Virus record (IMG/VR): IMGVR_UViG_3300033143_001374
Location: 1 to 40,009 of that record
DNA from: a virus
Length of the DNA: 40,009 bases
Reading direction: 5' to 3' (one strand)
In this document: positions 2,363 to 40,009 of the stretch, piece by piece
Position numbering within the stretch: the stretch's first letter is position 1
Layout of the letters: the number at the start of each line of letters is the position of its first letter
Notes under the pieces: generated by a model
Databases searched by the model: none
What the model was told of the DNA's origin: nothing
What the model saw: only the letters and a program-made list of their open reading frames with translations
Translations under genes and position numbers: made by a program

Positions 2363-3283
2363 CTACTCAGTATCCTTGGCAGCAGCAGTAGCTTTTTTTC
2401 TGGGTTTTCTTTTAGGTTTTGGGGCTTCTTCGGCCACCACCTCTTCTTCTGTCTCTTCATCTTTTTCCTCATAAAAAGATTCGTCAATAGGCTTGCCGTT
2501 TTCGTCTAAAAACGGAGAGTGCTCTACATCGAAGTCTCCTTGATCGGTTAGCTGTCTACCTTCAAAGTCAACATAAATAAACTCTTCTTCGGAAGTCCAC
2601 TGGATGTAGTTTCCGTATTCATCAATATGTCTTCCTTCGGTATCAACCAACCTTTTGTCTTTGTCTACTAACTGACCGTCCTCGTTGGTAAACTTGAATT
2701 TCTTTAAAAACTGGTTTTCTGGAAGTTTTGAGTCAACATCGTCAGAATCAGATATTAAGTAGTAGAACTCTGTAGCACCCATTCCGGCTACGGGGTCTCC
2801 CTGATTCATCAAATAATCAGTTAAACCGTTCTTAAAATACAAGTCTCCACTATCATTATACACCAAGCAGTTAGCAAATAGGAAGTTAAATCTTACCGCA
2901 TCTGCCTTTCCTTCACATGTAATAGAATCTAGGTCAGTTCTAGAAGATAGCATATCTACCATTTCTGCCCTTTTTCTTCTCATATCAACCGCTTTTTCTT
3001 TAGCCTCAAGGAGTGGAATTCCACCCTTAGCCAACTCGTACTCTAAGTTGACAACTTCTTGTCTCAGGGCTTGATATCTTGATTCTCGGTCGTCCGACCA
3101 TAATTTACGCTTTCTTAGCTCCTCGTCAAGCTGATCACGCAAAATAGTACCGGCAGACAACTCTTCGTTGAATGTTTTCCTTCTTACTTCATTGGCTTTA
3201 GTTAGTTGTTGCATACTAGGTCTAATAACCGCGTATTCCTTGCCATCATAATCAAAAACTCTTTTGTCTTTTGAATCTGTCAT
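2363..3283 (-). CDS. Acidic hypothetical protein, candidate tail-assembly factor
   Basis: A 306-residue protein with SD AGGAG upstream of its ATG. Residues 40-120 are charged and helical, probably coiled coil. Residues 195-275 hold a run of short imperfect repeats of the type LVDKDKRLVDTEGRHIDEYG, with a D/N-G turn in each unit. The C-terminus is first strongly acidic (EEKDEETEEE) and then basic (PKPKRKPRKK). It lies just before the tape-measure gene, where tail-assembly chaperones are usually encoded; that position is the only hint of function. No domain is recognised, and there is no obvious frameshift site linking it to the preceding gene. Confidence 0.6.
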   Translation of the reverse strand: MTDSKDKRVFDYDGKEYAVIRPSMQQLTKANEVRRKTFNEELSAGTILRDQLDEELRKRKLWSDDRESRYQALRQEVVNLEYELAKGGIPLLEAKEKAVDMRRKRAEMVDMLSSRTDLDSITCEGKADAVRFNFLFANCLVYNDSGDLYFKNGLTDYLMNQGDPVAGMGATEFYYLISDSDDVDSKLPENQFLKKFKFTNEDGQLVDKDKRLVDTEGRHIDEYGNYIQWTSEEEFIYVDFEGRQLTDQGDFDVEHSPFLDENGKPIDESFYEEKDEETEEEVVAEEAPKPKRKPRKKATAAAKDTE

Positions 3284-3292
3284 TTTAAACTC

Positions 3293-3604
3293 CTACTTTT
3301 CCTTGTTTATATCAAACTTTGTAACATAACGGTTCCAAGAAAATGAATATTGACTAAGTTCACTTTCTGCGGCTCTTAGGTTTGAACCACCATTATCTAA
3401 TATCTTTATTCTAGCTGACTTCCAGCTTTCCCTAAACTTTTTTTGATCTTCAGTTAGATCGTTGTAATCTAACCCATGCCCCCATAGCCACCCAAACTCT
3501 TCTTCAAAAACAGCTAGTGATCCTATGATGGTTGTGTTAAATTTTTTCTTTATATTATTTTGCAATCTTTTTTTAGAAAAATCGCCATAATCTTGTGATT
3601 CCAT
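3293..3604 (-). CDS. Small hypothetical protein of the tail-assembly block
   Basis: A 103-residue, charged and aromatic-rich protein (FEEEFGWLWGHGLDY around residues 33-47). It begins 4 bp after the stop of the 353-residue gene and ends 9 bp before the next start, so all three are probably co-translated. Its place between tail tube and tape measure suggests a role in tail assembly; the sequence itself shows no known motif. Aromatic-rich short proteins here could be the partner of a chaperone. Confidence 0.55.
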   Translation of the reverse strand: MESQDYGDFSKKRLQNNIKKKFNTTIIGSLAVFEEEFGWLWGHGLDYNDLTEDQKKFRESWKSARIKILDNGGSNLRAAESELSQYSFSWNRYVTKFDINKEK

Positions 3605-3608
3605 TTTA

Positions 3609-4670
3609 TTATCCCTTAAAGCGATCAGCCATTTGCTTCATTGCCTCTGATCTAAGTTCTCGTTTTACATCAGGAAGGTCTTGCTCTTCTAGTTTGCCTT
3701 TTTGTTTTACAGCCACGTCTCTTTGACGCATTTTCATTCTTTCATTTATGCCGTTTATATCTCTAATTTTATCTGCTTCTTCTCGACTGCCAGCAACTAC
3801 AAAAGTTTCTCCTTTTCCTCCTTTATTAGCACCCTTTTTGTTGAGTATGCTATCAACTTCTCTTTGTTTTCTTTCTTTTTCTGATTCTCTTCTTAGTTTT
3901 GCAAACCACCCGTCTAGCATGTCGTCATCCTCTATAACTTCTTCAGAAGGTCTTTCAGGATTTTCGTATACATTATCGTACATTCTAGAGTACATTATTA
4001 AGCTTTTTTGGTCAGTCGACAAGTCAGAAGCACAAATCCCAAAGCAAGAACTTTTAGAGACAGACCATATACTTCTGAAGGGTTCTGTTCTGCATATCTC
4101 TCTGTATTCTTCTGCGTTAAGAATATTATTTGCCGCAAAAGTTAAAAATCTCTGGAGTATATAATTATCGCTTTCCCCCCAATTATTATAGCTGTAAACT
4201 TGCTCGTTTGTTTCTGAACGTATACAAATTGCCGCAAGAAAATCAGACCTGCAATTTTCAGCGTGAGCTTCAAGCGTCATGTGGTCAAGTGAGAATTTTT
4301 TTATAATACTTTTATTGATACCGTTTTTAATGGACTTTATTTTTGACCTTAGTTGTCTTTTTTTTCTATCATTATAAAGATTCTCATACAACTCAATTTT
4401 TTGAGTATCAAGATACTCATTAAGCTTTTCAAGCTCTTTGTCGTTGCTGGGACTCCAGATTCCCCGATCAAGCAAATATTTATCAGCTTGTTCTCTTGTT
4501 ATGAGATCGCTAAAACGAGTATCGTTCAACGCTTCTAGATAGACCATTTCAGCCATAGCCTTTTGGTCTTTATTAGGATTAGATATAGAATATATACTAC
4601 CGTCTATTTTTAGATAGACTTTTCCTGAGCATATTCTATTTACAGCAGATGTTTTTTTACCTTGATCCAT
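3609..4670 (-). CDS. Hypothetical protein, candidate tail-assembly chaperone
   Basis: A 353-residue mostly helical protein. Residues 75-125 are a Lys/Glu/Leu-rich probable coiled coil; residues 130-235 contain scattered Cys and Trp (NWGESDNYILQRFLTFAANN); residues 250-353 are highly charged and basic, likely flexible. It is the first gene after the tail-tube gene and its terminator-like hairpin, and precedes two smaller genes and the tape measure. In long-tailed phages this interval normally encodes chaperones that coat the tape measure before tube assembly. That is a positional inference; no family is recognised. Confidence 0.55.
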   Translation of the reverse strand: MDQGKKTSAVNRICSGKVYLKIDGSIYSISNPNKDQKAMAEMVYLEALNDTRFSDLITREQADKYLLDRGIWSPSNDKELEKLNEYLDTQKIELYENLYNDRKKRQLRSKIKSIKNGINKSIIKKFSLDHMTLEAHAENCRSDFLAAICIRSETNEQVYSYNNWGESDNYILQRFLTFAANNILNAEEYREICRTEPFRSIWSVSKSSCFGICASDLSTDQKSLIMYSRMYDNVYENPERPSEEVIEDDDMLDGWFAKLRRESEKERKQREVDSILNKKGANKGGKGETFVVAGSREEADKIRDINGINERMKMRQRDVAVKQKGKLEEQDLPDVKRELRSEAMKQMADRFKG

Positions 4671-4681
4671 ATCCTAAGTCC

Positions 4682-4708
4682 AAAAAACAGGGGAGGGGTC
4701 GCCTCCCC
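4682..4708 (-). terminator. Intrinsic terminator after the tail-tube gene
   Basis: Minus strand GGGGAGG pairs with CCTCCCC (perfect 7 bp, 5-nt loop) followed by TGTTTTTTG. It starts 11 bp past the tail-tube stop. It would give high tail-tube transcript relative to the low-copy assembly and tape-measure genes downstream. Confidence 0.8.
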
Positions 4709-4718
4709 TTGAATATTA

Positions 4719-5855
4719 TTAAATGCCTTTTGTTCCAGCACCTAGATAATTTTCTCTATTGCTCCACCAAGTTTGGCCGTCAGCATTAAAGTTATCACCA
4801 GAGTGAAGAACTGTAAAGTCATTGAATGTCTGGTAAGAATACGTAACAGATACGTTTCCTCCACCAGCGTCACCTCCACCATAAGTAACAGAGGAAAGTT
4901 TATTTTTCTCACCAAGATAGATTCTAGTACCTTCGCAGGTTGCGATTCTAATTCTTTGGTCGGTAAGATTGCTTGCAGTTACACAAGCTGCTGCACTTCC
5001 ACAGTCATCAATAGCGTTAACCTGATCACCAGATACAGAAGTAACTTCAATATCACATGTAACTTCTACAGGGAAGGTAACAGTCTTTGCATAAGGGCTT
5101 CTAGCACCTAGCTCAAACAAGTCTTCACGAGCAAGGTCAGTAGAAACTGTAATAGACGAGATGTGAGCCGTTGCACTTTTTACACTATCATCAACGCCAA
5201 AAATATCATTTGGTAAAATAGTATAGTCTGCATTGCCTGTTTCACTTGCTTGCGAAGCAAAGATCATATTCTCTCTACGGTTTACTCCACCAGAACCGAT
5301 TGGTGCATCGTTGTTTCCAGCAAAGAAGCCTGTTGCTGCACCAGTTGCCCAAGGTGTTGTACAATTCGTGTCGTCGTAGGTATCCCAAACCTTGGTGTTT
5401 CCCGCAAGTGTTATGTCTTCAGAAAAATTATCTTCTAAAGGAAAACTGTAACTTACAGAAGAAACAGTTAGTCCAGACATTTCTACAAAAGTTACTGGGT
5501 CGCCGCTTACCGATTGATCTGTCTCAGGCCAGATACCTAGCTGAACTATAGTCTCAGCAGGTGCTCTTTCAGCAAGAGATGGTCCAGCAAGATTGGCTCC
5601 AGCCGCATCAGATGCAGAAGCAAGACAGAATAGTAGCGGATATCCATCCAAAACTTTTGTCATGGAAATCTCAACGGTTGGAATTCCCTCAATATTCTCA
5701 TATATCGCAAGTTGCCCCAATTCAAAAGCCTGCTCTAAGTTAAACGTAGTTGTTGTACTTACAGACTGTACGCCGTGAGCCTCTCTGAAAGTCGTTGATC
5801 CCGGCTTTCGAAAAGTCATTTGTTGAATTGGATAATAAATTCTATTATTAGCCAT
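4719..5855 (-). CDS. Probable major tail (tube) protein
   Basis: A 378-residue, beta-rich protein with little Lys. The segment SSVSYSFPLEDNFSEDITL and then GNTKVW (about residues 130-157) resembles the tube-protein pattern in which a beta strand is followed by a long hairpin loop; a second strand-rich part includes SPYAKTVTFPVEVTCDIEV around residue 260. A serine/glycine-rich tail (GGGDAGGGN) lies near the end. Four Cys in residues 275-310 could form disulphides. The gene sits between neck genes and the assembly/tape-measure genes and is followed at once by a strong terminator, as expected for a very abundant product. It is an inference from position and fold-like pattern. Confidence 0.68.
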   Translation of the reverse strand: MANNRIYYPIQQMTFRKPGSTTFREAHGVQSVSTTTTFNLEQAFELGQLAIYENIEGIPTVEISMTKVLDGYPLLFCLASASDAAGANLAGPSLAERAPAETIVQLGIWPETDQSVSGDPVTFVEMSGLTVSSVSYSFPLEDNFSEDITLAGNTKVWDTYDDTNCTTPWATGAATGFFAGNNDAPIGSGGVNRRENMIFASQASETGNADYTILPNDIFGVDDSVKSATAHISSITVSTDLAREDLFELGARSPYAKTVTFPVEVTCDIEVTSVSGDQVNAIDDCGSAAACVTASNLTDQRIRIATCEGTRIYLGEKNKLSSVTYGGGDAGGGNVSVTYSYQTFNDFTVLHSGDNFNADGQTWWSNRENYLGAGTKGI

Positions 5856-6876: not shown

Positions 6877-7511
6877 TATTTTATTCCCTTTTGAACTTCT
6901 CTTGTAACAACTCTCTCTATCGTATTTTCAATATCCGATAAAGACCTAGTTACAAAGTTATCCACCGCTGTTCCTGCATATTGGGGAGGAACGCTCCATC
7001 CCCCTCCTTGTCTTTTTGCCATTATCCCTAGTCCAGTCCTGCCTTGATTACTCGGCACAAAGTCATATTCAGATACTATTATTGAAGTGCTTTCGAGAAG
7101 CAACCATCTTAGCCATTCAATAACACCACTTCCACGATTTGATGCGTAAGTAAACGAAGATTCGGTCAGTGATAAAACATCACTATAGTCAGATTTTATC
7201 ATACCTATAGAAATTTTACCAAAACCCTTATTCTTTGAATACACTACTTTTATACTTTTCGACCACGTTTCAAGTATAGAGTCCAAATTGCTAATGTTTT
7301 GGATACCTAGCTCGCCCCGTAGGGTTCCACCAATTACCTCTTGCCAAACTATAGAATTTTCTATGGACTGTCGTATTTCCAATCCTAATCTCTGTTCTAT
7401 TCTATTAATAATGCCAGCCATAGACTTTGCTATCTTGGCATTTATTTCTTTGTTTATATTTTTGTTAAATTCTGCATCAAAATTAGGTAACGTTATTCCT
7501 AGTCTGACCAT
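6876..7511 (-). CDS. Neck / tail-completion-like protein
   Basis: A 211-residue protein. The start is taken as ATG at 7511, which has AGGTGA at a good distance; a GTG 9 bp further upstream is part of that same SD and is rejected. The N-terminal 60 residues are amphipathic helix (NINKEINAKIAKSMAGIINR), followed by beta segments and a Gly-rich stretch (AKRQGGGWSVPPQYAGT) and a final helix. Length, the long N-terminal helix and the position between connector and tail-tube genes recall HK97 gp10-like tail-completion proteins. Assignment is tentative. Confidence 0.5.
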   Translation of the reverse strand: MVRLGITLPNFDAEFNKNINKEINAKIAKSMAGIINRIEQRLGLEIRQSIENSIVWQEVIGGTLRGELGIQNISNLDSILETWSKSIKVVYSKNKGFGKISIGMIKSDYSDVLSLTESSFTYASNRGSGVIEWLRWLLLESTSIIVSEYDFVPSNQGRTGLGIMAKRQGGGWSVPPQYAGTAVDNFVTRSLSDIENTIERVVTREVQKGIK

Positions 7512-10268: not shown

Positions 10269-11908
10269 CAATATACCATTTCATTTAAATTTAAAGTCCC
10301 AAAAAAGTCTCCGCTAGTGCCTGCCGTCATTGCTTCGGCAGTTATCGCTATAACAGGCTGAGTTACATTATCCGATAGTACAGTTGTTAATATGCTTTTT
10401 TGAGAATACGGAGTAAAATTTTCAAATTCATGACTACAAACCTCTCCACCTTTGACAATGGTTGCGTATTGTTCAACACCTGATGTCGCTGGTGATAAAA
10501 ATCCAGTTGGCTCATGATTGATCTCAGTAACCGAAGAATCTGAAATACTATTATAGCTTCCACCAGCAGTAAAGCAAAGGTTTCTTAGGCGTATATTGAA
10601 GATACCGCTAGAGGTTAGTGGATTTGAACCTACGGTTAAATCTTCTGGAAAAACTAAGCAGTGATTTACCTGTCCATTAAATGTTGCTTTTGGTCTTATA
10701 GACATAATAATTTTTTCTCCATCACCAAAGGCTACTGGTGTGGCAGATGGACATGTGACAGAAAAGGAACCAAATTGTCTTTTGATAGTACCTGCAAGTT
10801 GAACAACAGCACATGTAGCTTTTAGTTCGCTAGAGGAAGCAGCGGTATCTGTATTTTCACACTCATATCTAATTGGCAACGTTCCTTGACGCATGTAAGG
10901 ATTAACTTCGTTGTTTGGGTTTTCAAAAATATGGCAAATCGTTTTTCTACCATCTTCTTCGTAAATACCGAATCTAGCAACACCTACCCCTAGCCATTGA
11001 AAATCAAGCCAGTAAAGATTTTCTTTTGTTATATCCAAATCAAAGTTTGTTGAACCATCAAGCTCGTCGCGATTCCAATCTGATTGTATTACCCTTGTGT
11101 CTACAACAGAACCAGTAGTATTAGAGCGGATTACAACATATAAATCTGTTCCATCAAGCTCCCAAAAAAGACCATTTTCTGAATCAAAATAACCCCATCT
11201 TCTTCTTACCCCTGCTTTTCCAGTATCCCCAAGAGCTAGAGTCTGCATGACTTTACTCATTGTTCCCGGTTGGTACGGGTGATAAAGATGGCTTTGTCTA
11301 GTTACTAAATCTCCACTTGCAGAACCATTTGTATCGAGAATAATTGATCTTTGATTGGCTGCATAATTTAAAACTCCGCTACCAGCAGTAACATCATAAA
11401 ACTCATTTGGTCTTTCGTCGTATGCGTAAACATACTGTCTAGAACTTTCCGTAGGCTCACTGATTAATCCACCAAAAGTGCTAAGAGCAGGAGAACCCTC
11501 ATCAAACCTTGTAAAAACATCGCCGTTTCTGTCAATTTTTGCAGAATTTGCTGGGTCATCTCTATCAACAATAGTGCTTTTTTGATAGTACAATTCTGGC
11601 AGTTCAGCGTCTGCTTTAACTGAAGCGATAACCGATATACCAACAAGTAGATTTTCCAAAACTCGAAAGTCTGCCGTTACAGTAGATAAATCTAGAAATA
11701 ACTCACCTTCTCCAGCAGCAAATCCAGCACGCTCAATCCCAGTTATTACACCTGTCGCACCAGAGTCAGCACCAATAACAGTCTGTCCTTTTTCAAATTT
11801 TGTAGAGCCTTCGCCCTCAAAAAATATTACCAGTCTACCGGCAGCGGCAGATTTTTTACCTGTGCTGTCTGGAGGTAGTCTGATAAAACCATTTTCATTT
11901 ATAGCCAT
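10268..11908 (-). CDS. Large virion structural protein (beta-rich)
   Basis: A 546-residue, almost entirely beta-type protein. Residues 20-90 include a repeat-friendly domain (GQTVIGADSGATGVITGIER); the centre contains LYWLDFQWLGVGVARFGIY and the following PYMRQGTLPIRYECENT, a signature I have seen in large virion proteins of marine phages and jumbo phages. Its sequence suggests a jelly-roll or lectin-like sandwich. A terminator-like hairpin lies in the 97-bp gap upstream, so it may also have its own expression level. Assigned as a structural or adhesion protein from composition and location. Confidence 0.6.
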   Translation of the reverse strand: MAINENGFIRLPPDSTGKKSAAAGRLVIFFEGEGSTKFEKGQTVIGADSGATGVITGIERAGFAAGEGELFLDLSTVTADFRVLENLLVGISVIASVKADAELPELYYQKSTIVDRDDPANSAKIDRNGDVFTRFDEGSPALSTFGGLISEPTESSRQYVYAYDERPNEFYDVTAGSGVLNYAANQRSIILDTNGSASGDLVTRQSHLYHPYQPGTMSKVMQTLALGDTGKAGVRRRWGYFDSENGLFWELDGTDLYVVIRSNTTGSVVDTRVIQSDWNRDELDGSTNFDLDITKENLYWLDFQWLGVGVARFGIYEEDGRKTICHIFENPNNEVNPYMRQGTLPIRYECENTDTAASSSELKATCAVVQLAGTIKRQFGSFSVTCPSATPVAFGDGEKIIMSIRPKATFNGQVNHCLVFPEDLTVGSNPLTSSGIFNIRLRNLCFTAGGSYNSISDSSVTEINHEPTGFLSPATSGVEQYATIVKGGEVCSHEFENFTPYSQKSILTTVLSDNVTQPVIAITAEAMTAGTSGDFFGTLNLNEMVY

Positions 11909-33201: not shown

Positions 33202-34004
33202 TAATTTTCCTCGTCCATTACTGTGTCTGTGTTTAAAAGAGGCTGGTCTACCTCTCCATCCTCGTATTCGTGGAAGTCTGCCAATCTTTCGCGTGCTTTG
33301 TCGGCGGCGATAGCTTGAACCTCCATATCGTATCCTTCTCGTTCCTTTGCTTCTAGCGTATCTAGTTGTCGCATCCAAAGGCTAAAGTTTGTTTTGGCAT
33401 CGTCGGCAACACGCTTTCTTTGTTCACGAGTACCTTTTAGGTCTTTTAGATAGCGTTCTTTTTTTGTTAGAAGTTTTTCGTGCTCGTTGATATAGCTAGA
33501 TTTGCTGCCGATCAAAGCTCCAAGTTGAGTTTGAAACATAGCGATTGCACCAACATCTTGAAGTTCTTCAGGTTTATCCATTTCGACATCTATAAGGTTT
33601 GTCATGACATCTATTTGCTCCATGATCTGTTGGCGATCTTCCATAGAGCGATTGATAAGAATCTCAGTTCTGATTACTTCAAGAATCTGCATTTCTTCGG
33701 TGTGAGTTACATCTTCGTTGAACTGCTTGTAAAAGTCAATCCAGTTGTGTTCAAAGAATATAATCTCGGCATCGGAGAATTGACGTTTGAGTTCATGAAA
33801 ATAGTATTTCGTTCGTAAAGTAGATAGAAGGTGTTCGTCATCGGTTAGATCGCGAGCCTTTAGGTTTTCTTTGTCTATGAACTTTTTGACCGGGGAAACG
33901 GTTCTGTTTAGATTGTTGGCGATTTCTTCCAACGGCAGGTCAAAACAGTTTTGGCGTATGTAGTTCATTTCTTCGTTTGATAGCTTACCACGTTTTCTCG
34001 TCAA
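33201..34004 (-). CDS. Terminase small subunit candidate
   Basis: A 267-residue protein. It starts with TTG at 34004, supported by a strong SD (AAAGGAG) 8 nt upstream; no ATG fits better. Residues 5-50 are a helix-turn-helix (NEEMNYIRQNCFDLPLEEIA, then NNLNRTVSPVKKFID) as in small terminases. Residues 100-230 are mostly helical coiled coil (EQIDVMTNLIDVEMDKPEEL and KERYLKDLKGTREQRKRVAD), used for oligomerisation. It precedes gene set including terL but is separated by two glycan genes. Role by position and architecture. Confidence 0.6.
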   Translation of the reverse strand: MTRKRGKLSNEEMNYIRQNCFDLPLEEIANNLNRTVSPVKKFIDKENLKARDLTDDEHLLSTLRTKYYFHELKRQFSDAEIIFFEHNWIDFYKQFNEDVTHTEEMQILEVIRTEILINRSMEDRQQIMEQIDVMTNLIDVEMDKPEELQDVGAIAMFQTQLGALIGSKSSYINEHEKLLTKKERYLKDLKGTREQRKRVADDAKTNFSLWMRQLDTLEAKEREGYDMEVQAIAADKARERLADFHEYEDGEVDQPLLNTDTVMDEEN

Positions 34005-34620
34005 TGCCGTTCTCCTTTAGTATTTGTAATATGGATTCCATTAGCTTTTCTCGTTTGACTTTTGGAATCTTTATTTTGTTTGCGAACTTGATCCATTCGG
34101 GACGTTGAGATATAGGAATGTTTTTGTCTATGAGTTTATAAATTTCGCTGGCAAACAAACCTTCTTCTTGGGAAAATTTTTGCTCTTGCTGAACATCTGC
34201 ATTGCTAACTGTGTTGCTTGCTACAAGAGTTTTCTTTTTTTCGTTTCTTCTGTGCCATCTGTAAAAGTATTCGCAGTCTGTTTTCTTGGAATACTTTACA
34301 CATTCGTTTTTCTTGTATGCGTCGAGCGGACAATTAAAACATGGTTTGTCTGGGCGAGCATAGTTGTCGCGTTTAAAATTATGAAGGCGGTTTCTAGCAT
34401 GTATCCATAAAAAACTATCTAGTGTATTTCCTTTTTCGGGATCAAACTTTTCGAGAATTGTAACGCCGTTTTTGTCGGGCTTTAAAATTTCTAGGAAAAT
34501 TTGCTGCTTCATATCTTCGACTTCGTGATAGCCGAATCTAAACTTCTTAGCTATTCGGGTCGCTATTCTCTCGAAGACTTCTAGAACTTCCGTCTCCGTG
34601 TACCCCTTGGGTAGTTTCAT
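33985..34620 (-). CDS. Sigma-70-family-like transcription factor
   Basis: A 211-residue protein. The start ATG 34620 has GAGG 7 nt upstream; the GTG four codons earlier is rejected. Residues 15-88 match sigma region 2: KKFRFGYHEVEDMKQQIFLE (core-binding) and KFDPEKGNTLDSFLWIHARN then RLHNFKRDNYAR (the -10 recognition helix area). A Cys cluster C94, C97, C107, C116 (PCFNCPLDAYKKNEC) follows. Residues 150-211 are helical but no clear region 4 HTH. At the head of the minus-strand operon, it may drive late transcription or pair with the second promoter class of the right arm. Only region 2 is clear. Confidence 0.62.
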   Translation of the reverse strand: MKLPKGYTETEVLEVFERIATRIAKKFRFGYHEVEDMKQQIFLEILKPDKNGVTILEKFDPEKGNTLDSFLWIHARNRLHNFKRDNYARPDKPCFNCPLDAYKKNECVKYSKKTDCEYFYRWHRRNEKKKTLVASNTVSNADVQQEQKFSQEEGLFASEIYKLIDKNIPISQRPEWIKFANKIKIPKVKREKLMESILQILKENGIDEKTW

Positions 34621-34795
34621 GGGTTGCCTCACATGTTATTTCGGCTTCAAAATCGTGCATTATTAGTGTTGCTACTGCTCCTTCGACATCTACATCAACA
34701 TGAGCAGATATTACACCCTCTACAAGCTCGCCAGTTTCTGCGTTGATAACTTTTGAGTCTACAGGGTTTCCGTTGGCGAATATCTTAACCTTCAT
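34547..34795 (-). CDS. Small hypothetical protein, first operon genes
   Basis: An 82-residue protein starting at ATG 34795 (GAGGAA 7 nt upstream); a longer reading 14 codons upstream is rejected. Beta-type sequence (MKVKIFANGNPVDSKVINAE and DVEGAVATLIMHDFEAEIT) suggests a small sandwich. Its last 74 bp overlap the sigma-like gene, and its first 11 bp overlap the gene upstream. Function unknown. Confidence 0.55.
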   Translation of the reverse strand: MKVKIFANGNPVDSKVINAETGELVEGVISAHVDVDVEGAVATLIMHDFEAEITCEATHETTQGVHGDGSSRSLRENSDPNS

Positions 34796-35052: not shown

Positions 35053-35208
35053 ATGAATATAAAATGGACAGATGCCGAGAAGAAATACATTCGCGATAAT
35101 GCACATCGTTTGAAAATGCGGCAAAAGCTAGGTGTCAAAAAGCAGAGTGGTCGTGGAATATGCAAGATTGAACCCAAAAAAGATGATACTCAACATTTTA
35201 TTAAATGA
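35053..35208 (+). CDS. Small DNA-binding-like protein, possibly deleted
   Basis: A 51-residue basic protein (MNIKWTDAEKKYIRDNAHRL and then KMRQKLGVKKQSGRGICKIE). WTDAEKKYIRDNAHRLK looks like the first helix of a SANT/HTH protein, and MRQKLGVKKQ looks like its last helix. The middle recognition part is missing, compared with the HTH seen at the start of the small terminase gene. AGAGG lies 13 nt upstream. A terminator-like hairpin follows, so it is probably a one-gene unit. Could be a regulator remnant. Confidence 0.5.
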   Translation: MNIKWTDAEKKYIRDNAHRLKMRQKLGVKKQSGRGICKIEPKKDDTQHFIK

Positions 35209-35272: not shown

Positions 35273-35493
35273 TTTTTGATTGGTGAGTTGTGTGAAGACC
35301 ACCTTCGGATTTACGGTACGCCATACAAAAATCCAAAAATATTGAAAAAACCCCACCCTCTAACCTAATATATGCTGATCCCGGCCCAGATTTTACGTAA
35401 ACCCTTGATATATAAGGACTTACGACGAAAAAAAGTGCAAAAAAAGTTTTTTAATTATTTCGGGAAAAATCGGCTGATTTTACTGGATTAGGC

Positions 35494-35521
35494 TTGAACT
35501 GTTTGCCGATATCTGTATAAT
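35494..35521 (+). promoter_or_regulatory. Sigma70-like promoter, class A
   Basis: TTGAAC (35494-35499), 16-bp spacer, TATAAT (35516-35521), then the shared leader box AGAAGTTAAG. The same arrangement recurs at 36370-36397 with a nearly identical spacer. Confidence 0.75.
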
Positions 35522-35561
35522 AGAAGCATAAGAAGTTAAGAGACTTCAAAACATTTTCCCC

Positions 35562-35576
35562 GATCTTGAAAGGATC
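35562..35576 (+). promoter_or_regulatory. SD element within GATC-N7-GATC
   Basis: GATCTTGAAAGGATC holds the SD GAAAGGA between two GATC. Equivalent elements are at 35887-35901, 36428-36442, 37605-37620 (N8) and 38051-38065; at 37820-37835 the second GATC is lost. The GATC pair can form a short stem around the SD, though it may also be an extended match to the 16S tail. Confidence 0.6.
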
Positions 35577-35582
35577 ACAATC

Positions 35583-35819
35583 ATGAGCAAGTTCATCACC
35601 CTTACCAAACCTGTTACCGTTCCTGCCGCTGACCTATTCAGCAAGCCGGTTGTTCTGCCTGCTGGAAAGCGGTTCAAGATTACTGACCGCGATGGGATTG
35701 CCATTGATGGTAAAACCATCTTCAAGCGGATGGCTATCGTCGATGGCCGGTTTGTCGATCTGGAAATTCCAGTCGATGGAGTTACCAAGAAAAGTTTGGA
35801 AAACTTTGAAATTAACTAG
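35583..35819 (+). CDS. Small hypothetical early protein
   Basis: A 78-residue protein (MSKFITLTKPVTVPAADLFS ... GAGKRF-like strand, FEIN end). It reads as a small beta-type protein with DRDGIAIDGKTIFKRMAI in the middle and a basic tendency. ATG follows GAAAGGATCA. It has a class A promoter about 60 bp upstream. No family recognised. Its plus-strand frame is chosen over opposite-strand frames because of promoter and SD. Confidence 0.7.
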   Translation: MSKFITLTKPVTVPAADLFSKPVVLPAGKRFKITDRDGIAIDGKTIFKRMAIVDGRFVDLEIPVDGVTKKSLENFEIN

Positions 35820-35825
35820 GGAAAG

Positions 35826-35857
35826 TGACCTAACGTGTCCCACTAGTATGCGATAAT
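35826..35857 (+). promoter_or_regulatory. Class B promoter-like element, copy B1
   Basis: TGACCTAACGTGTC at 35826-35839 and GATAAT at 35852-35857, 32 bp overall. TG-C precedes GATAAT as an extended -10. The -10 lies in an inverted repeat (see separate entry). It is followed by the AGAAGTTAAC leader box and the 94-residue gene. Confidence 0.6.
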
Positions 35858-35863
35858 ACTAGT
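35842..35863 (+). promoter_or_regulatory. Palindrome overlapping the -10 of B1
   Basis: ACTAGTAT and ATACTAGT are perfect 8-bp arms separated by GCGATA, so the -10 hexamer is inside the palindrome. A similar but weaker symmetry (CTATA...TATAG) lies at B3. An operator for a repressor is the simple reading. Confidence 0.55.
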
Positions 35864-35907
35864 ATAAGAAGTTAACAACAACACCCGATCTTGAAAGGAT
35901 CAACATT

Positions 35908-36192
35908 ATGAAAACTCAAACCAAATACTTAGAGATGTTCGAAATCTTCGATTGTGACTCACACGATCACAGACCATTGGCACAGTTGCCGAATATGCGT
36001 GACGCTATGAACTTCGTTCGTGGTACTAGCATGGATTTACAAATCGAATCACGCTTCGTTGATGTAGATACTTTCTACCGATGCGTACACGCCGATTTGG
36101 TTAAGGATGGCGAAACCAAGGTTTCGATGCAGTACCTTGAAGCAGTTCGCAAACTAGCGGTTGCGTTGTCCGATGTTATGAAATACAACTAA
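35908..36192 (+). CDS. Small hypothetical early protein
   Basis: A 94-residue acidic protein: MKTQTKYLEMFEIFDCDSHD, a helical centre (NMRDAMNFVRGTSMDLQIES) and a C-terminal helix (YLEAVRKLAVALSDVMKYN). ATG follows the GATC-SD element by 6 nt. It is driven by the B1 promoter and ends just before the first TGCAA hairpin. No domain is recognised. Early phage proteins of this size often bind host enzymes, but that is only context. Confidence 0.7.
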   Translation: MKTQTKYLEMFEIFDCDSHDHRPLAQLPNMRDAMNFVRGTSMDLQIESRFVDVDTFYRCVHADLVKDGETKVSMQYLEAVRKLAVALSDVMKYN

Positions 36193-36200
36193 ACGGCAAG

Positions 36201-36300
36201 TGCAATCGGATTGCATATGGGAAATCTCATATATGGGAATAATCCGATATGAGAGCCCGGCCCCGATTTGTCGTAACTCCTTATACAGCAACGACTTACG
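36201..36300 (+). repeat. Intergenic cassette 2, complete
   Basis: Hairpin TGCAATCGGATTGCA (36201-36215) right after a stop codon; a degenerate inverted repeat at 36214-36232; ATATGGGA...TCCGATAT (36231-36250); GC-box AGCCCGGCCCC (36254-36264); and the 29-bp inverted repeat at 36272-36300 (CGTAACTCCTT/AACGACTTACG). Then A-tract 36303-36316. It fills the 254-bp gap with promoter 36370-36397. Confidence 0.8.
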
Positions 36301-36369
36301 GCAAAAAAAAGTACAAAATAATTATTTTATTTATTTCTGGAAAAATCACCAAAATAGACTGGATTAGAC

Positions 36370-36397
36370 TTGAACCATCTGCCGATAACTGTATAAT
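36370..36397 (+). promoter_or_regulatory. Sigma70-like promoter, class A
   Basis: TTGAAC (36370-36375), 16-bp spacer, TATAAT (36392-36397), then AGAAGTTAAG. Close copy of the promoter at 35494-35521. Confidence 0.75.
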
Positions 36398-36446
36398 AAG
36401 GACATAAGAAGTTAAGACAGTTTTCTTGATCTTGAAAGGATCGGCC

Positions 36447-36641
36447 ATGTTTTCTAAATTCGACGTTTCCGTTTCTGTTTGTGAAACTCCTGCCCATCAG
36501 CCCACTGCGGCTGATCTTGCCGAATATCAAGAATGGCAGGAGCAGCAGGAGCGTGACGCTGCCGCTCGTCGTCTTATGGATATGATGGACGGTTTGCAGC
36601 AGGACGAAGGCCACTCCCTTGATTTTGGATTGCATCGGTAG
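36447..36641 (+). CDS. Small acidic helical protein
   Basis: A 64-residue protein from ATG 36447, placed 5 nt after GAAAGGATC; a TTG frame upstream is rejected because it would include the SD. After 20 residues (MFSKFDVSVSVCETPAHQPT) comes one long Glu/Gln/Ala-rich helix (AEYQEWQEQQERDAAARRLM). It may be a coiled-coil adaptor or inhibitor. No family recognised. Confidence 0.65.
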   Translation: MFSKFDVSVSVCETPAHQPTAADLAEYQEWQEQQERDAAARRLMDMMDGLQQDEGHSLDFGLHR

Positions 36642-36642
36642 T

Positions 36643-36675
36643 TGCAATCGGTTTGCGTTTATTTTTTTTCTCTGT
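36643..36675 (+). terminator. TGCAA hairpin with T-run, possible terminator
   Basis: TGCAATCGGTTTGCG (36643-36657) follows the stop codon by one base and is followed by TTTATTTTTTTTC. It is the only copy with a T-run. The stem is short (GCAA/TTGC), so efficiency is uncertain. Confidence 0.5.
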
Positions 36676-36688
36676 TTAGGATTTTATT

Positions 36689-36859
36689 ATGTTTCACTGT
36701 GATTATTGCGACGATTCTGTTTCTCTCTCATCTCAGGTTTGCACCGATTGCGGTGAACCTCTCGTCGACAATCCGTGTATTGTCGAATACGACTACGACG
36801 ACCATGATGGTCAACCCGATGAACTCCAAGAGTGGAGTGATTTCGACCCTGATTGCTAG
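36689..36859 (+). CDS. Small zinc-ribbon protein
   Basis: A 56-residue protein (MFHCDYCDDSVSLSSQVCTD). CDYC at residues 4-7 and CTDCG at 18-22 form a classic four-Cys zinc ribbon. The second half is very acidic with aromatic residues (DDHDGQPDELQEWSDFDPDC). AGGA precedes ATG by about 10 nt. Zinc ribbons of this size are often used by phages to bind host transcription or replication proteins. The metal site is seen directly; the partner is not. Confidence 0.75.
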   Translation: MFHCDYCDDSVSLSSQVCTDCGEPLVDNPCIVEYDYDDHDGQPDELQEWSDFDPDC

Positions 36860-36860
36860 A

Positions 36861-36990
36861 TGCAATCGGTTTGCGTTTACATGTACTACCTGATCTATGT
36901 TGTTGTGCGTGTACATTGATATATGGGAATAATCCGATATGAGGGCCCGGCCCAGAATTTTCGTAAGTCCTTGATACATAAGGAGTTACG
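36861..36990 (+). repeat. Intergenic cassette 3
   Basis: TGCAATCGGTTTGCG (36861-36875) two bases after a stop; a 12-codon frame (36881-36919) that is probably meaningless; ATATGGGA...TCCGATAT (36921-36940); GGGCCCGGCCC (36943-36953); and 29-bp inverted repeat 36962-36990 (CGTAAGTCCTT/AAGGAGTTACG, one mismatch). A-tract 36993-37000. The gap 36860-37228 otherwise holds a GGTTTTT/AAAAACC hairpin (37093-37116) and a sixth inverted repeat. Confidence 0.8.
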
Positions 36991-37139
36991 TCAAAAAAAA
37001 GTGCAAAATAAATTCTTCGAAAAAACCCAGATTTTGATTTTAGGTGGACACATGGTAAATGTGAATTGTCTTCCCCATCGGCATTTTACCTCGGTTTTTA
37101 CCGTGTGAAAAAAACCTTTCCCCAGTCGGCCATTTTCGA

Positions 37140-37195
37140 CGTAAGTACCTGTGATATATAGACTTACGGCGACGATTTGACTCTCTCGGTATAAT
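37140..37195 (+). repeat. Inverted repeat copy 6 with promoter-like TATAAT
   Basis: CGTAAGT (37140-37146) pairs with ACTTACG (37162-37168) within a 29-bp unit of the same span as the others. TATAAT at 37190-37195 follows 22 bp later, without a good -35 at normal distance. The GC-box and ATAT repeat are absent. Confidence 0.6.
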
Positions 37196-37228
37196 TAAGT
37201 GAAAGAAAGAAAAAAGGAAATTAAAACT

Positions 37229-37318
37229 ATGAAAACAATCTTCAACCTAATCATCGAACTGACTAAAGCATTTTGTGAGGATATTAACAAAGTCCGAAAA
37301 GATAGAATTAATTTCTAA
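37229..37318 (+). CDS. Microprotein of 29 residues
   Basis: MKTIFNLIIELTKAFCEDIN is followed by KVRKDRINF. ATG has AAGGAAA 8 nt upstream. One amphipathic helix with a basic end. It ends inside the next promoter area. No domain. Confidence 0.5.
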   Translation: MKTIFNLIIELTKAFCEDINKVRKDRINF

Positions 37319-37332
37319 AAAGATCGGCAAAT

Positions 37333-37364
37333 TGACCAAAGGTGTCACTACGATAGACGATAAT
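37333..37364 (+). promoter_or_regulatory. Class B promoter-like element, copy B4
   Basis: TGACCAAAGGTGTC at 37333-37346 and GATAAT at 37359-37364. Same 32-bp frame as the others but with AAAGG instead of TAACG. It is upstream of the 45-residue gene. Confidence 0.55.
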
Positions 37365-37403
37365 ATATATATGAGAAAGATTCAGCAAGCAGAAAGAAAG
37401 ATT

Positions 37404-37541
37404 ATGAAAAACACAACAAGAAAAATTGGCGATGAGGTTTTGGTAAACGGGTTTTGGGTAGTGATCGTCGAGCTATTCGATGACGGATACGCCTTTGTGA
37501 TGGATCAAGACGGAGAAGAATTCGAAGTTTTTTTGAATTAA
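37404..37541 (+). CDS. Small hypothetical protein, SH3-like candidate
   Basis: A 45-residue product starting MKNTTRKIGDEVLVNGFWVV and ending GEEFEVFLN. It has the strand order of a small beta barrel (GDEVLVNGFWVVIVELFDDG). ATG 37404 is chosen because it lies about 40 bp after the B4 -10, as in other genes; ATG 37371 (56 residues) sits at the likely RNA start with no SD. GAAAG stands before the selected start. Confidence 0.55.
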   Translation: MKNTTRKIGDEVLVNGFWVVIVELFDDGYAFVMDQDGEEFEVFLN

Positions 37542-37552
37542 ACTTGAGAAAG

Positions 37553-37584
37553 TGACCTAACGTGTCACACCAATAGACGATAAT
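37553..37584 (+). promoter_or_regulatory. Class B promoter-like element, copy B2
   Basis: TGACCTAACGTGTC (37553-37566) and GATAAT (37579-37584). Followed by ACAAGTTAAC and an SD element at 37605-37620. Confidence 0.6.
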
Positions 37585-37624
37585 AATAATATAACAAGTT
37601 AACCGATCACTGAAAGGATCAAAC

Positions 37625-37663
37625 ATGAATATCAAACTTGCAGGACATGGTTCGCTCTGCTAA
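37625..37663 (+). CDS. Twelve-residue leader peptide, possible
   Basis: ATG 37625 follows the SD element GAAAGGATCAAAC and gives MNIKLAGHGSLC then a stop. It overlaps the next start by 17 bp in another frame. Either a leader peptide that couples translation, or a gene broken by a frameshift. Confidence 0.4.
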   Translation: MNIKLAGHGSLC

Positions 37664-37742
37664 AATCTTAAACAAGCCAAGAAAGGTTAGTGAGATTGAC
37701 GCAAGCAACTATATTGCGAACTACGGTTCTGCTGCCGAATAG
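37647..37742 (+). CDS. Microprotein of 31 residues
   Basis: MVRSAKILNKPRKVSEIDAS then NYIANYGSAAE. AGGA lies 4-5 nt before ATG, inside the leader frame. Basic first half. It ends in a TAG that is part of the following palindrome GGGTTTAACCC. No domain is recognised. Confidence 0.45.
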   Translation: MVRSAKILNKPRKVSEIDASNYIANYGSAAE

Positions 37743-37815
37743 GGTTTAACCCGCAAGCGTAGCCTAGTCGCTACCATAGCTGGCGAGCTATTCCAAGATA
37801 CGCATTTTTATTTTT
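37742..37815 (+). ncRNA. Structured intergenic element, possible terminator or RNA
   Basis: GGGTTTAACCC (37742-37752), GTAGC/GCTAC (37759-37763, 37770-37774), and TAGCT-GGCG-AGCTA (37777-37790) lie in tandem. GCGT (37757-37760) can alternatively pair with ACGC (37800-37803), just before ATTTTTATTTTT. A branched terminator or a regulatory RNA are both possible. Confidence 0.45.
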
Positions 37816-37839
37816 ACTCGATCTTGAAAGGAAAGTAAT

Positions 37840-38034
37840 TTGATTGCAACGCGAATAAGTTTATCCAACGGTCTCACACTTGAGATCAATCAGTTTTCGA
37901 CTCACGGCTCAATGCGTGTGATCAACTTTGAAGGCGTAATTATCGCTTCTCATAGTTGGCAAAACTCAAACAAGTCGTACAAGCGACAACTAGTGAAACG
38001 ATACGAATCGTTGACCATCGTTTCAAAACGATAA
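37840..38034 (+). CDS. Small hypothetical protein with TTG start
   Basis: A 64-residue basic beta-type protein, (M)IATRISLSNGLTLEINQFST then HGSMRVINFEGVIIASHSWQ. TTG at 37840 lies right after GAAAGGAAAG; no ATG near the SD is in frame. The C-terminal 20 residues are basic (KSYKRQLVKRYESLTIVSKR). A TTG start is unusual among the neighbours, but the small terminase gene uses one too. No domain recognised. Confidence 0.6.
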   Translation: MIATRISLSNGLTLEINQFSTHGSMRVINFEGVIIASHSWQNSNKSYKRQLVKRYESLTIVSKR

Positions 38035-38072
38035 CTACATTTTTTTACTCGATCTCGAAAGGATCAAACATT

Positions 38073-38291
38073 ATGGATGAAATCATCCAAGAAATTCTAG
38101 CAGAAATCGACGAACAGGGGTTCGAAGATTTCGAAGATTGGTTCGGCCAATCTGAATTCAAAACGAGTAGCATGGTGCTACTGGTTGTGGCTACTCATTT
38201 TTGGGAAGCTAATTCATGGGCGTTTGCCGACATGTTCAAATTTGAAGATGTGGTTTCGGCGGTCGATCACCTACTTAGCTCTAACGTGTAA
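38073..38291 (+). CDS. Small acidic hypothetical protein
   Basis: A 72-residue protein: MDEIIQEILAEIDEQGFEDF and then EDWFGQSEFKTSS, followed by a helical part (MVLLVVATHFWEANSWAFAD) and DVVSAVDHLLSSNV. ATG comes 7 nt after GATCTCGAAAGGATC. Strongly acidic N-terminus, like DNA-mimic or partner-binding proteins, but unproven. No family recognised. Confidence 0.65.
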   Translation: MDEIIQEILAEIDEQGFEDFEDWFGQSEFKTSSMVLLVVATHFWEANSWAFADMFKFEDVVSAVDHLLSSNV

Positions 38292-38297
38292 TCCATG

Positions 38298-38352
38298 CCG
38301 ATGGGTGAGGGTAATCCCAAGGGAAAAGCCGCGAGCGGCTCTCGCCCATCGG
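38298..38352 (+). ncRNA. Candidate structured RNA, three-way junction
   Basis: CCGATGGGTGAGGG (38298-38311) pairs with CTCTCGCCCATCGG (38339-38352) over 14 bp, with two G-U pairs. Within it, TCC-CAAG-GGA and GCCG-CGAG-CGGC form two further hairpins. There is no T-run, so it is not a normal terminator. It starts 7 bp after a stop codon and ends 33 bp before the 24-residue gene. I do not match it to a ribozyme or riboswitch class. Confidence 0.6.
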
Positions 38353-38384
38353 TTGACCACCTACTATGTTCGAAAGGATATTAG

Positions 38385-38459
38385 ATGATTTTAGTTTATT
38401 GCATAATGTATGCAAGTGCGTGCCTTATACTTGTAGACATGTGGCGATGCGTGCGTTAA
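38385..38459 (+). CDS. Membrane microprotein of 24 residues
   Basis: MILVYCIMYASACLILVDMW and then RCVR. Almost wholly hydrophobic, one possible membrane helix with a basic end. GAAAGGA stands 8 nt upstream. Short but well placed between an RNA-like element and cassette 4. Confidence 0.5.
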   Translation: MILVYCIMYASACLILVDMWRCVR

Positions 38460-38464
38460 TCACT

Positions 38465-38563
38465 TGCAATTGAATTGCATATAGGAAATTTCATATATGG
38501 GAATTTTCCGATATGGGGCCCGGCCCAGATTTTCCGTAAACCCTTGACACTAAAGAACTTACG
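38465..38563 (+). repeat. Intergenic cassette 4
   Basis: TGCAATTGAATTGCA (38465-38479) five bases after a stop; ATATGGGA...CCGATAT (38495-38514); GGGCCCGGCCC (38516-38526); 29-bp inverted repeat 38535-38563 (CGTAAACCCTT/AAGAACTTACG). The A-tract is short here (CAAAATAAAG). Promoter B3 follows. Confidence 0.8.
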
Positions 38564-38618
38564 GCAAAATAAAGTAGGAAATAAATATCCGTCTTTTTTG
38601 GAAAATAAGTCGGCCAAT

Positions 38619-38650
38619 TGACCTAACGTGTCCCTATACTATGCGATAAT
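38619..38650 (+). promoter_or_regulatory. Class B promoter-like element, copy B3
   Basis: TGACCTAACGTGTC (38619-38632) and GATAAT (38645-38650), with TG-C before the -10 and partial symmetry CTATA/TATAG across it. The AGAAGTTAAG leader and an AAAGG SD follow. Confidence 0.6.
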
Positions 38651-38683
38651 ATAGATATAAGAAGTTAAGAAAGAAAGGTAACT

Positions 38684-38767
38684 ATGACTGATTTAAATGT
38701 TTACATCTCACTCGGCATTGTGCTATCTGTGATAGCTGGAATTATTTCCCACTATTTTTCAGAATAG
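38684..38767 (+). CDS. Membrane microprotein of 27 residues
   Basis: MTDLNVYISLGIVLSVIAGI then ISHYFSE. One clear transmembrane helix with polar ends. AAAGG precedes ATG by 6-7 nt, and a class B promoter lies about 35 bp upstream. Similar in size to the microproteins at 38385 and 39819. Confidence 0.6.
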   Translation: MTDLNVYISLGIVLSVIAGIISHYFSE

Positions 38768-38769
38768 GC

Positions 38770-38798
38770 TTGACAAACATCTTAACGTGTGGTACAAT
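38770..38798 (+). promoter_or_regulatory. Consensus sigma70 promoter of the HAD gene
   Basis: TTGACA (38770-38775), 17-bp spacer, TACAAT (38793-38798). The spacer carries TTAACGTGTGG, close to the TAACGTGTC part of the class B elements. Confidence 0.75.
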
Positions 38799-38826
38799 TA
38801 CATATATGAAAAAGAAAGATAACAAC

Positions 38827-39321
38827 ATGAAAAAAGCATTCGTATTCGATTTTGATGACACCCTTGCAACAACTGATTGCAAAGTTTTGGTTCGCAGTAC
38901 CATTAACAAAATGGTGGGCAGACGACTCACACCGGCAGAGTTTAACACTTACGAGCCGACCAAGTTCGTCTACTTTGATTTTTCAGAGTTCGCATCTGCT
39001 GAATTTATTCACAATGCAAACCCAACCAAGTTGATCGACTTCGCTAAAGAGGTTCACGACGAAGGGCATAGCGTTTACGTTCTTACTGCAAGAGCAGACA
39101 ACGTAGCCGATGCGATTACTGATTGGCTTTGTGGTTTTGATGTTCAGCCTGTTAAGGTTTTCGGTGTTGGTCGCGATGATAAGAAATGCGACATTGCAGC
39201 AGAAAAGAAAAAGGTTTTGGCTACCTTAAATCAAGTGTTCGACGTGGTTTACTTCTACGACGATGACCAACACAATATTGATCTTGCCAACCAAATCGGT
39301 ATCAAGACATACTTAGTTTAG
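38827..39321 (+). CDS. HAD-superfamily phosphatase
   Basis: A 164-residue protein starting at ATG 38827 (GAAAG upstream), about 22 nt after the predicted RNA start; ATG 38806 is at the RNA start and is not favoured. FDFDDTL (D8, D10, T12) is HAD motif I, VLTARAD (T87) motif II, and VVYFYDDDQHN (D145-D147) motif IV. The cap is small. Phage HAD proteins act on nucleotides or on polynucleotide 3'-phosphate, as in T4 PseT; the substrate here is unknown. It is the only enzyme in the right arm. Confidence 0.85.
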   Translation: MKKAFVFDFDDTLATTDCKVLVRSTINKMVGRRLTPAEFNTYEPTKFVYFDFSEFASAEFIHNANPTKLIDFAKEVHDEGHSVYVLTARADNVADAITDWLCGFDVQPVKVFGVGRDDKKCDIAAEKKKVLATLNQVFDVVYFYDDDQHNIDLANQIGIKTYLV

Positions 39322-39337
39322 AAAGAGGGTTGAAATT

Positions 39338-39502
39338 ATGGAAGACTGGACAGACTTGCTTGCGTCACTTATGGGTGGTATGACACAAGAAGATATGAAA
39401 AAGATTTCGCGGGAAGACGTAGAAGCGATTGGCTTGATTATTGAAATGGCTGAAAGAGATTACGAGAATCACCAAAAGAAAGAAAAGAAAAATGAAAGTT
39501 GA
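39338..39502 (+). CDS. Small acidic helical protein
   Basis: A 54-residue protein (MEDWTDLLASLMGGMTQEDM, then KKISREDVEAIGLIIEMAER, ending KKEKKNES). GAGGG lies 10 nt upstream. It overlaps the next frame by 11 bp, so they are coupled. Function unknown. Confidence 0.6.
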   Translation: MEDWTDLLASLMGGMTQEDMKKISREDVEAIGLIIEMAERDYENHQKKEKKNES

Positions 39503-39668
39503 AATTACTGCTGAAGTTGACGTTGAAGAAATGATAAAGACTACAAACCAAGCTTTGCAAAAGATGCTAGACAACCAACTGAAAGACTGTTTCATGAAAT
39601 CTGTTATAATAGCGACATTAGCTCAAAACGAACATCTCCTTAAAACGATGAAAACGGAACCTTATTAA
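39492..39668 (+). CDS. Small helical protein
   Basis: A 58-residue protein from ATG 39492: MKVEITAEVDVEEMIKTTNQ and then helix ALQKMLDNQLKDCFMKSVII. The longer frame starting further upstream is rejected because it overlaps the previous gene fully. It ends KTMKTEPY in copy one of the 27-bp repeat. Function unknown. Confidence 0.6.
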   Translation: MKVEITAEVDVEEMIKTTNQALQKMLDNQLKDCFMKSVIIATLAQNEHLLKTMKTEPY

Positions 39669-39822
39669 AATGACTCAAATCAACCTACACGCCTACCGTA
39701 TTGAATACGCCGAGGAATACGCCAAATTCAAGAATGGCGAAATCACCCTAGAGCAATGGCATGAGTATTGTTCGAATTGCCTCTCCGAAATCTTGGATGA
39801 AAACGGAACCTTATTAAAATGA
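39647..39822 (+). repeat. 27-bp direct repeat at two gene junctions
   Basis: Exact 27-bp copies at 39647-39673 and 39796-39822, each containing ACGGAACCTTATTAAAATGA. Each ends one gene and gives the ATG of the next, but the first copy reads in a different frame from the second. It acts as a portable stop/start junction. Confidence 0.85.
39670..39822 (+). CDS. Small hypothetical protein of 50 residues
   Basis: MTQINLHAYRIEYAEEYAKF, then KNGEITLEQWHEYCSNCLSE, ending ILDENGTLLK. Acidic, mostly helical. The start is provided by the 27-bp repeat, with no strong SD apart from ACGGAA, so coupling with the upstream gene (2 bp apart) is likely. The stop overlaps the next ATG (ATGA). Confidence 0.6.
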   Translation: MTQINLHAYRIEYAEEYAKFKNGEITLEQWHEYCSNCLSEILDENGTLLK

Positions 39823-39902
39823 TTACAGTACCAACAGTTATATCTTTATTTTTATTGGCGGGTTTGATATTCTTTGCGTTCGTTACGTTGTTTGAATGTT
39901 AA
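39819..39902 (+). CDS. Membrane microprotein of 27 residues
   Basis: MITVPTVISLFLLAGLIFFA then FVTLFEC. One transmembrane helix. ATG overlaps the previous stop by 4 bp. Same class as the microproteins at 38385 and 38684. Confidence 0.6.
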   Translation: MITVPTVISLFLLAGLIFFAFVTLFEC

Positions 39903-39935
39903 AGGTGTACAAGCTAAATTAGACTGGTGAGCACC

Positions 39936-40009
39936 TGCAATTGATTTGCATATAGATATATCGGCAAAATCCGATATGAGGGCCGGGCCCCGATTTGTCG
40001 TAAGTCCTT
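39936..40009 (+). repeat. Intergenic cassette 5, cut by window end
   Basis: TGCAATTGATTTGCA (39936-39950); ATATCGG...CCGATAT (39958-39977), a perfect 7-bp pair; GGGCCGGGCCC (39980-39990); and the left arm CGTAAGTCCTT (39999-40009) of the 29-bp repeat. Another gene unit should follow. Confidence 0.8.

Follow-up and report, generated by a model that had tools for sequence, protein, structure and literature searches.

Helically phased palindromes in the small-gene block of an uncultured phage family as probable operators of sigma70-like promoters

Repeated intergenic cassettes in the right arm of an uncultured phage are probably phased DNA operators, most likely for an activator, placed on host-type sigma70-like early promoters. 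The window analysed here, the whole 40,009-nt stretch, comprises bases 1-40009 of the 42,791-bp IMG/VR virus record IMGVR_UViG_3300033143_001374, and a preliminary description had proposed that its cassettes serve gene exchange or, alternatively, act as operators or origin sites. Among these proposals, the operator reading is supported by the helical phasing of the palindromes to promoters. Computation on the window and its relatives shows the sites, their restriction to one block and one family, their geometry and phasing, the non-covariation of the arms as RNA and the turnover of the neighbouring genes. In this widespread group of large aquatic phages the palindromes precede many of the small, rapidly changing genes, and their phasing to promoters points to protein-binding control sites, not recombination sites or RNA hairpins.

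The preliminary description had reported a TGCAA hairpin, an ATAT repeat, a GC palindrome and a 29-bp repeat recurring in that order at 36201, 36861, 38465 and 39936, and this order was found at all four positions. All four full copies are present, the one at 39936 being cut by the window end and the TGCAA hairpin of the 36861 copy being imperfect and lying ~45 bp from the ATAT repeat, farther than in the other copies. Both partial copies, at 35380 and 37140, were likewise recovered, the latter with two mismatches. A fifth full copy lies just outside the window in the same record (29-bp element at record position 41730), beyond a 15-N scaffold gap that follows the 39936 copy, and kin of the 37140-type site occur at record positions about 40160 and 42006. 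The 29-bp core is a pseudo-palindrome, CGTAA[GAC][TC]C[CG]TT-N7-inverted, with inverted 11-bp arms around an unconserved 7-bp centre; it begins at 35396, 36272, 36962 and 38535, with the two-mismatch copy at 37140. Shuffled windows contained 0.39 ± 0.71 such 29-bp matches and never reached five. The features are listed below, promoters here and throughout being consensus matches to the sigma70 type, that is, predicted starts.

33985-34632, minus strand: sigma-factor-like gene (region 2) that heads the structural operon and, in relatives, adjoins the cassette block
35053-35208, plus strand: first gene on the early side, encoding a small putative DNA-binding protein of three helices, present in one clade
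35380-35424, plus strand: partial cassette, GC dyad CCCGGCCC and 29-bp palindrome 35396-35424; the -10 box starts 91 bp past the palindrome
35494-35521, plus strand: predicted sigma70-type promoter TTGAAC-N16-TATAAT with TGCCGATA in the spacer (consensus match)
36201-36300, plus strand: full cassette, TGCAA hairpin 36201-36215, ATAT palindrome 36231-36250, GC dyad 36255-36264, 29-bp palindrome 36272-36300
36370-36397, plus strand: predicted sigma70-type promoter TTGAAC-N16-TATAAT, its -10 box starting 91 bp past the palindrome
36861-36990, plus strand: full cassette, imperfect TGCAA hairpin 36861-36875, ATAT palindrome 36921-36940, GC dyad 36943-36953, 29-bp palindrome 36962-36990
37140-37195, plus strand: site of the second type, in which the 29-bp palindrome (37140-37168) overlaps the -35 region and TATAAT follows at 37190
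38465-38563, plus strand: full cassette, TGCAA hairpin 38465-38479, ATAT palindrome 38495-38514, GC dyad 38516-38526, 29-bp palindrome 38535-38563
39936-40009, plus strand: full cassette truncated by the window end, 29-bp palindrome starting at 39999

In relatives, the usual cassette consists of a palindrome, a GC-rich linker, a second palindrome 50-53 bp on and then a TTGAC-N16/17-TATAAT promoter. Start-to-start spacing of the palindromes has modes of 53, 52 and 50 bp, with a minority at 42 bp. Most genomes keep their linkers at one length or close to it (24 in nine of nine, 23 in ten of ten); the linker sequence varies, its mean GC is 0.77 vs 0.41 for the contigs, and its GC palindrome is most often centred on the linker midpoint. 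Conserved among relatives are the 29-bp palindrome, usually paired, and the GC-rich dyad between the copies; the palindromes of the TGCAA and ATAT types seem restricted to the lineage of the window phage. In that lineage ATATSGGA-N4-TCCGATAT stands in place of the upstream palindrome and, as the preliminary description had claimed, the start of ATATSGGA precedes that of the 29-bp element by 40-41 bp, both points being read from the sequence.

Several further repeats were seen in and around these cassettes. A second promoter-like repeat, TTGACCTAACGTGTC...GATAAT, occurs at 35810-35870, 37317-37377, 37537-37597 and 38603-38663, mostly without a palindrome; GATAAT stands at 38645, downstream of the 38465 cassette, and the same motif occupies the place of the upstream palindrome in some cassettes of the relative G011. 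By eye, a module AGGTGGACACATGGTAAATGTG...TTTCCCC...AAACCTTTCCCCAG is repeated between two palindromes, at ~37030-37129 in the window and at ~5260-5360 and 6990-7200 in L090, where the 6990-7200 copy has an internal tandem duplication. A AGTCTATAGCACGCGAG-like sequence recurs at the right-arm block ends of G031, G021 and G033.

The capsid gene of the window has at least 598 relatives among candidate IMG/VR stretches, and GenBank phages gave no match for the capsid gene, the 715-aa protein or the nucleotide sequence, with only distant terminase matches. A loose form of the element was found in 8 of 31 family contigs, with no matches in the reversed control, and a tolerant scan added G021. Scanning of DNA alone recovered the element in at least 118 uncultured phage stretches; two or more elements are present in 106 of the 122 loci examined. 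The capsid family of the window is carried by 29 of the 32 contigs picked by the DNA motif alone (motif set plus extension). In G011, G039 and G044 the elements are confined to one block, the small-gene block adjoining the sigma-like gene (116.7-123.3 kb in G011, 107.4-130.2 kb in G044 and, in G039, from 157.8 kb past the contig ends as far as 8 kb). Up to about 21 copies are spread over 13-23 kb. Elements are present in nine of the ten capsid-reached contigs that extend at least 2.4 kb past the sigma gene, one of the nine (G004) having first been found through the motif. The tenth, G025, is a relative with the same gene order and no cassettes, the kind of case that the preliminary description had named as counting against its proposal: it has family promoters (TTGAC...TGCCGAT...TATAAT) and no palindrome in 4 kb. 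Since G025 has promoters without palindromes, the operator is not indispensable.

Perfect 29-bp palindromes in eight bacterial stretches, from Treponema (some beside tRNA genes), Planctomycetota and Verrucomicrobiales, were set aside as probable chance hairpins, as were three of the first four viral matches (L086, L087 and L089). Planctomycetota were rejected as host or source of the site, the element being found in none of 294 genomes. A guessed host-like protein used as query gave no match in a search that had no positive control.

Distances from the palindrome to the -10 box are 91, 91, 81, 21 and 21 bp in the five cases of the window, three cassettes lying 81-91 bp upstream of the box and the 37140 type 21 bp upstream. 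Across the family, the distance from palindrome end to -10 box peaks at 51, 61-63, 71-73 and 81-82 bp, with a best period of ~10.5-10.6 bp (scan of 5-20), a phasing strength R of 0.48-0.51 and a Rayleigh p of about 1e-14 (n=124). Stricter deduplication gave an nR2 of 26.5 (n=116), and with one element per contig the phasing was weaker (nR2 about 10). Several phased distances occur inside one genome (51, 51, 61, 61, 61, 62 and 72 bp in L210), so shared ancestry of a single interval does not explain them all. The values of the window fit this phasing. Promoter-like sites farther off (110-250 bp) showed no periodicity, and the element-to-ATG distance, used as a control, showed little at 10.5; the -10-to-ATG control is not clean because that distribution is narrow. 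A TTGAC-N16/17-TATAAT promoter lies within range downstream of 125 of the 251 single or promoter-proximal palindromes, the palindrome being mostly 29-60 bp from the -35 box. Sites upstream of the -35 box and in helical phase with the promoter have the arrangement of Class I activator promoters, and we take the phasing as the main evidence for a protein that would act on the promoter while always bound to one side of the helix. The sequence TGCCGATA is common in -35/-10 spacers across the family, including those of G025, which has no palindromes.

The sigma-like gene, which is present in 55 contigs, matches Pfam Sigma70_r2 at E 3.8e-5, just below the curated cut-off, and its family profile matches the ECF sigma factor CnrH (E 9e-6). 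The small helical protein (A2) was considered as the putative binder and rejected, since fewer than half of the sigma-bearing contigs have it and other cassette-bearing clades lack it; it matches no known family at a convincing E-value, and its structural matches are weak only. In the window, the gene at 35053-35208 carries a ~70-bp in-frame internal deletion relative to G011, with the middle of the predicted helices gone, which may be either natural or an assembly artefact. A regulator common to all cassette-bearing clades was not found. Larger ORFs matching the helical-protein profile occur in L153 (5297-6514) and L224 (3470-4687) and look GIY-YIG nuclease-like by eye.

Several other functions were weighed against these data. 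A role at the RNA level, as terminators or as hairpins that process or stabilise the transcript from upstream, is very improbable. Terminator-like hairpins are predicted, weakly, near the TGCAA repeats of the window (36849, 36628) and would fit such a role, but the arms of the 29-bp element do not covary. To avoid selection bias, the arm-pairing test was rerun on the 293 elements that do not match the seed pattern. Pairing at arm positions 6 and 7 was then below that of shuffled arms (z -4.0 and -4.6) and was not in excess at the remaining variable arm positions; position 13/17, inside the 7-bp centre, is an exception. Such a deficit of pairing is expected of half-sites that are read as DNA and argues against a conserved stem in RNA. 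In addition, no T-run follows the palindrome on the coding strand and an RNA family search of Rfam gave no match; with neither arm covariation nor a T-run, the elements lack the terminator stem-loop of the T4-type promoter-early stem-loops (PeSLs). Replication origins, partition sites or packaging sites are equally improbable: multiple palindromes clustered in one block would suit them, but up to about 21 copies dispersed before promoters, and in phase with these, would not, and a distribution of one copy to each promoter does not resemble the origin that the preliminary description had entertained.

Gene turnover in the block is real, 26 of 33 left-arm genes being shared with G011 vs 2 of 26 right-arm ORFs, a set that includes some that are possibly not genes. 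The gene-exchange proposal has indirect support in that block content turns over and that one near-clean swap was seen, between G031 10831-11682 and G024 3024-5334, where three of the four ends lie 9-14 bp from an element. Of the breakpoints between relatives, however, 22.7% lie within 100 bp of an element against 19.1 ± 2.8% expected, an enrichment that is not significant, and no tyrosine or serine recombinase was found in 17 large contigs. PeSL-like cassettes, in which promoter-associated repeats provide homology for small-gene swaps between phages, would accommodate the turnover, the near-clean replacement and the greater likeness of linkers within a genome (0.625) than between genomes (0.497), which suggests duplication or conversion; given the breakpoint figures and the failure to detect recombinases, we regard them as unlikely, and such swapping is in any case compatible with operators, not exclusive of them. 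Far less probable still are site-specific recombinase sites forming an integron-like gene-capture array. Their 11-7-11 geometry does resemble tyrosine recombinase core sites, and variable small genes do lie between copies, but neither Phage_integrase nor Resolvase (tyrosine and serine recombinases) was matched in 17 large, possibly incomplete contigs, with control searches positive in 14 and 10 of 14 genomes; moreover, the 7-bp centre differs between copies in one genome, and the promoter phasing would be left unexplained.

For the preferred operator reading, we propose that a sequence-specific regulator would bind each cassette upstream of a sigma70-like promoter and, most likely as an activator, would contact RNA polymerase from a constant side of the helix. 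Dimers of this regulator would occupy the 29-bp pseudo-palindrome. Because most relatives have two such sites, at an almost constant spacing on either side of the GC-rich dyad, joint binding by two dimers, or by a higher oligomer, is probable. The same sites might instead bind a repressor or silencer that shuts the promoters off, by upstream contact or by looping between paired sites, which we consider unlikely. The -35 box is mostly preceded by the site at 29-60 bp or more, and activators commonly act from such positions. The pairing, phasing and fixed spacing of the sites would nevertheless suit a repressor, repression would give the same phasing, and a regulator encoded by the phage could come into play only once the first genes have been expressed. 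Many scattered sites are also used by the immunity repressors of mycobacteriophages (PMC6550527, PMC9283540), but those sites are asymmetric (PMC9283540), unlike the present ones.

Under the activator-operator reading, the presence of the same operator before many small operons of one block suggests that the variable small genes would form one coordinately controlled regulon, open to gene exchange. Tentatively, the tripartite operator may bind an undescribed regulator and offer a shared plug-in point, at which any small anti-host gene behind a cassette would join the early regulon of this abundant uncultured phage family. Such an organization suggests a way for a fast-changing gene block to keep common control during turnover, and the cassette would serve as a marker for probable early host-takeover genes and, eventually, for the regulator. 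It also provides a helical-phase signature of regulated transcription obtained from sequence alone, in an uncultured phage family of hundreds of contigs.

Among known systems, T4-type phages reportedly carry PeSLs, or mobile regulatory cassettes (attributed to Arbiol et al. 2010 and Comeau et al. 2014), said in a title to be promoter-terminator motifs. The apparent likeness is that a large phage carries, between the small genes of a variable region, a recurring cassette with a promoter; here, however, the conserved part is a DNA pseudo-palindrome and theirs a terminator stem-loop, the arms do not maintain RNA pairing, enrichment of breakpoints is not significant and the phage lineage is another. 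The SAS/ESAS of cluster K mycobacteriophages (PMC3203893) likewise recur as imperfect inverted repeats before numerous genes of different families, mostly in one orientation. ESAS have 17-bp arms and stand immediately upstream of the start-associated sequence (PMC3203893), whereas the present elements have 11-bp arms, lie upstream of promoters in phase with them and are often paired around a GC dyad. Cluster A mycobacteriophage stoperators also are binding sites for one protein that recur many times within the genome of a phage; they are asymmetric, distributed over the genome and bound by the immunity repressor (PMC9283540, PMC6550527), in contrast to the sites found here, which are pseudo-palindromic, occupy one block only and do not form a stoperator array, and no integrase was found in 17 large contigs. 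Class I promoters, such as the NarL-dependent ones (PMC7419079), respond to host regulators, whereas the present system has a 29-bp site, often doubled with a fixed linker, and a binder that is putative only. Class I activators can occupy a range of upstream positions along a single face of the DNA (PMC7419079), and in both systems the distances between the sites and the sigma70-type promoter that they precede differ by whole helical turns.
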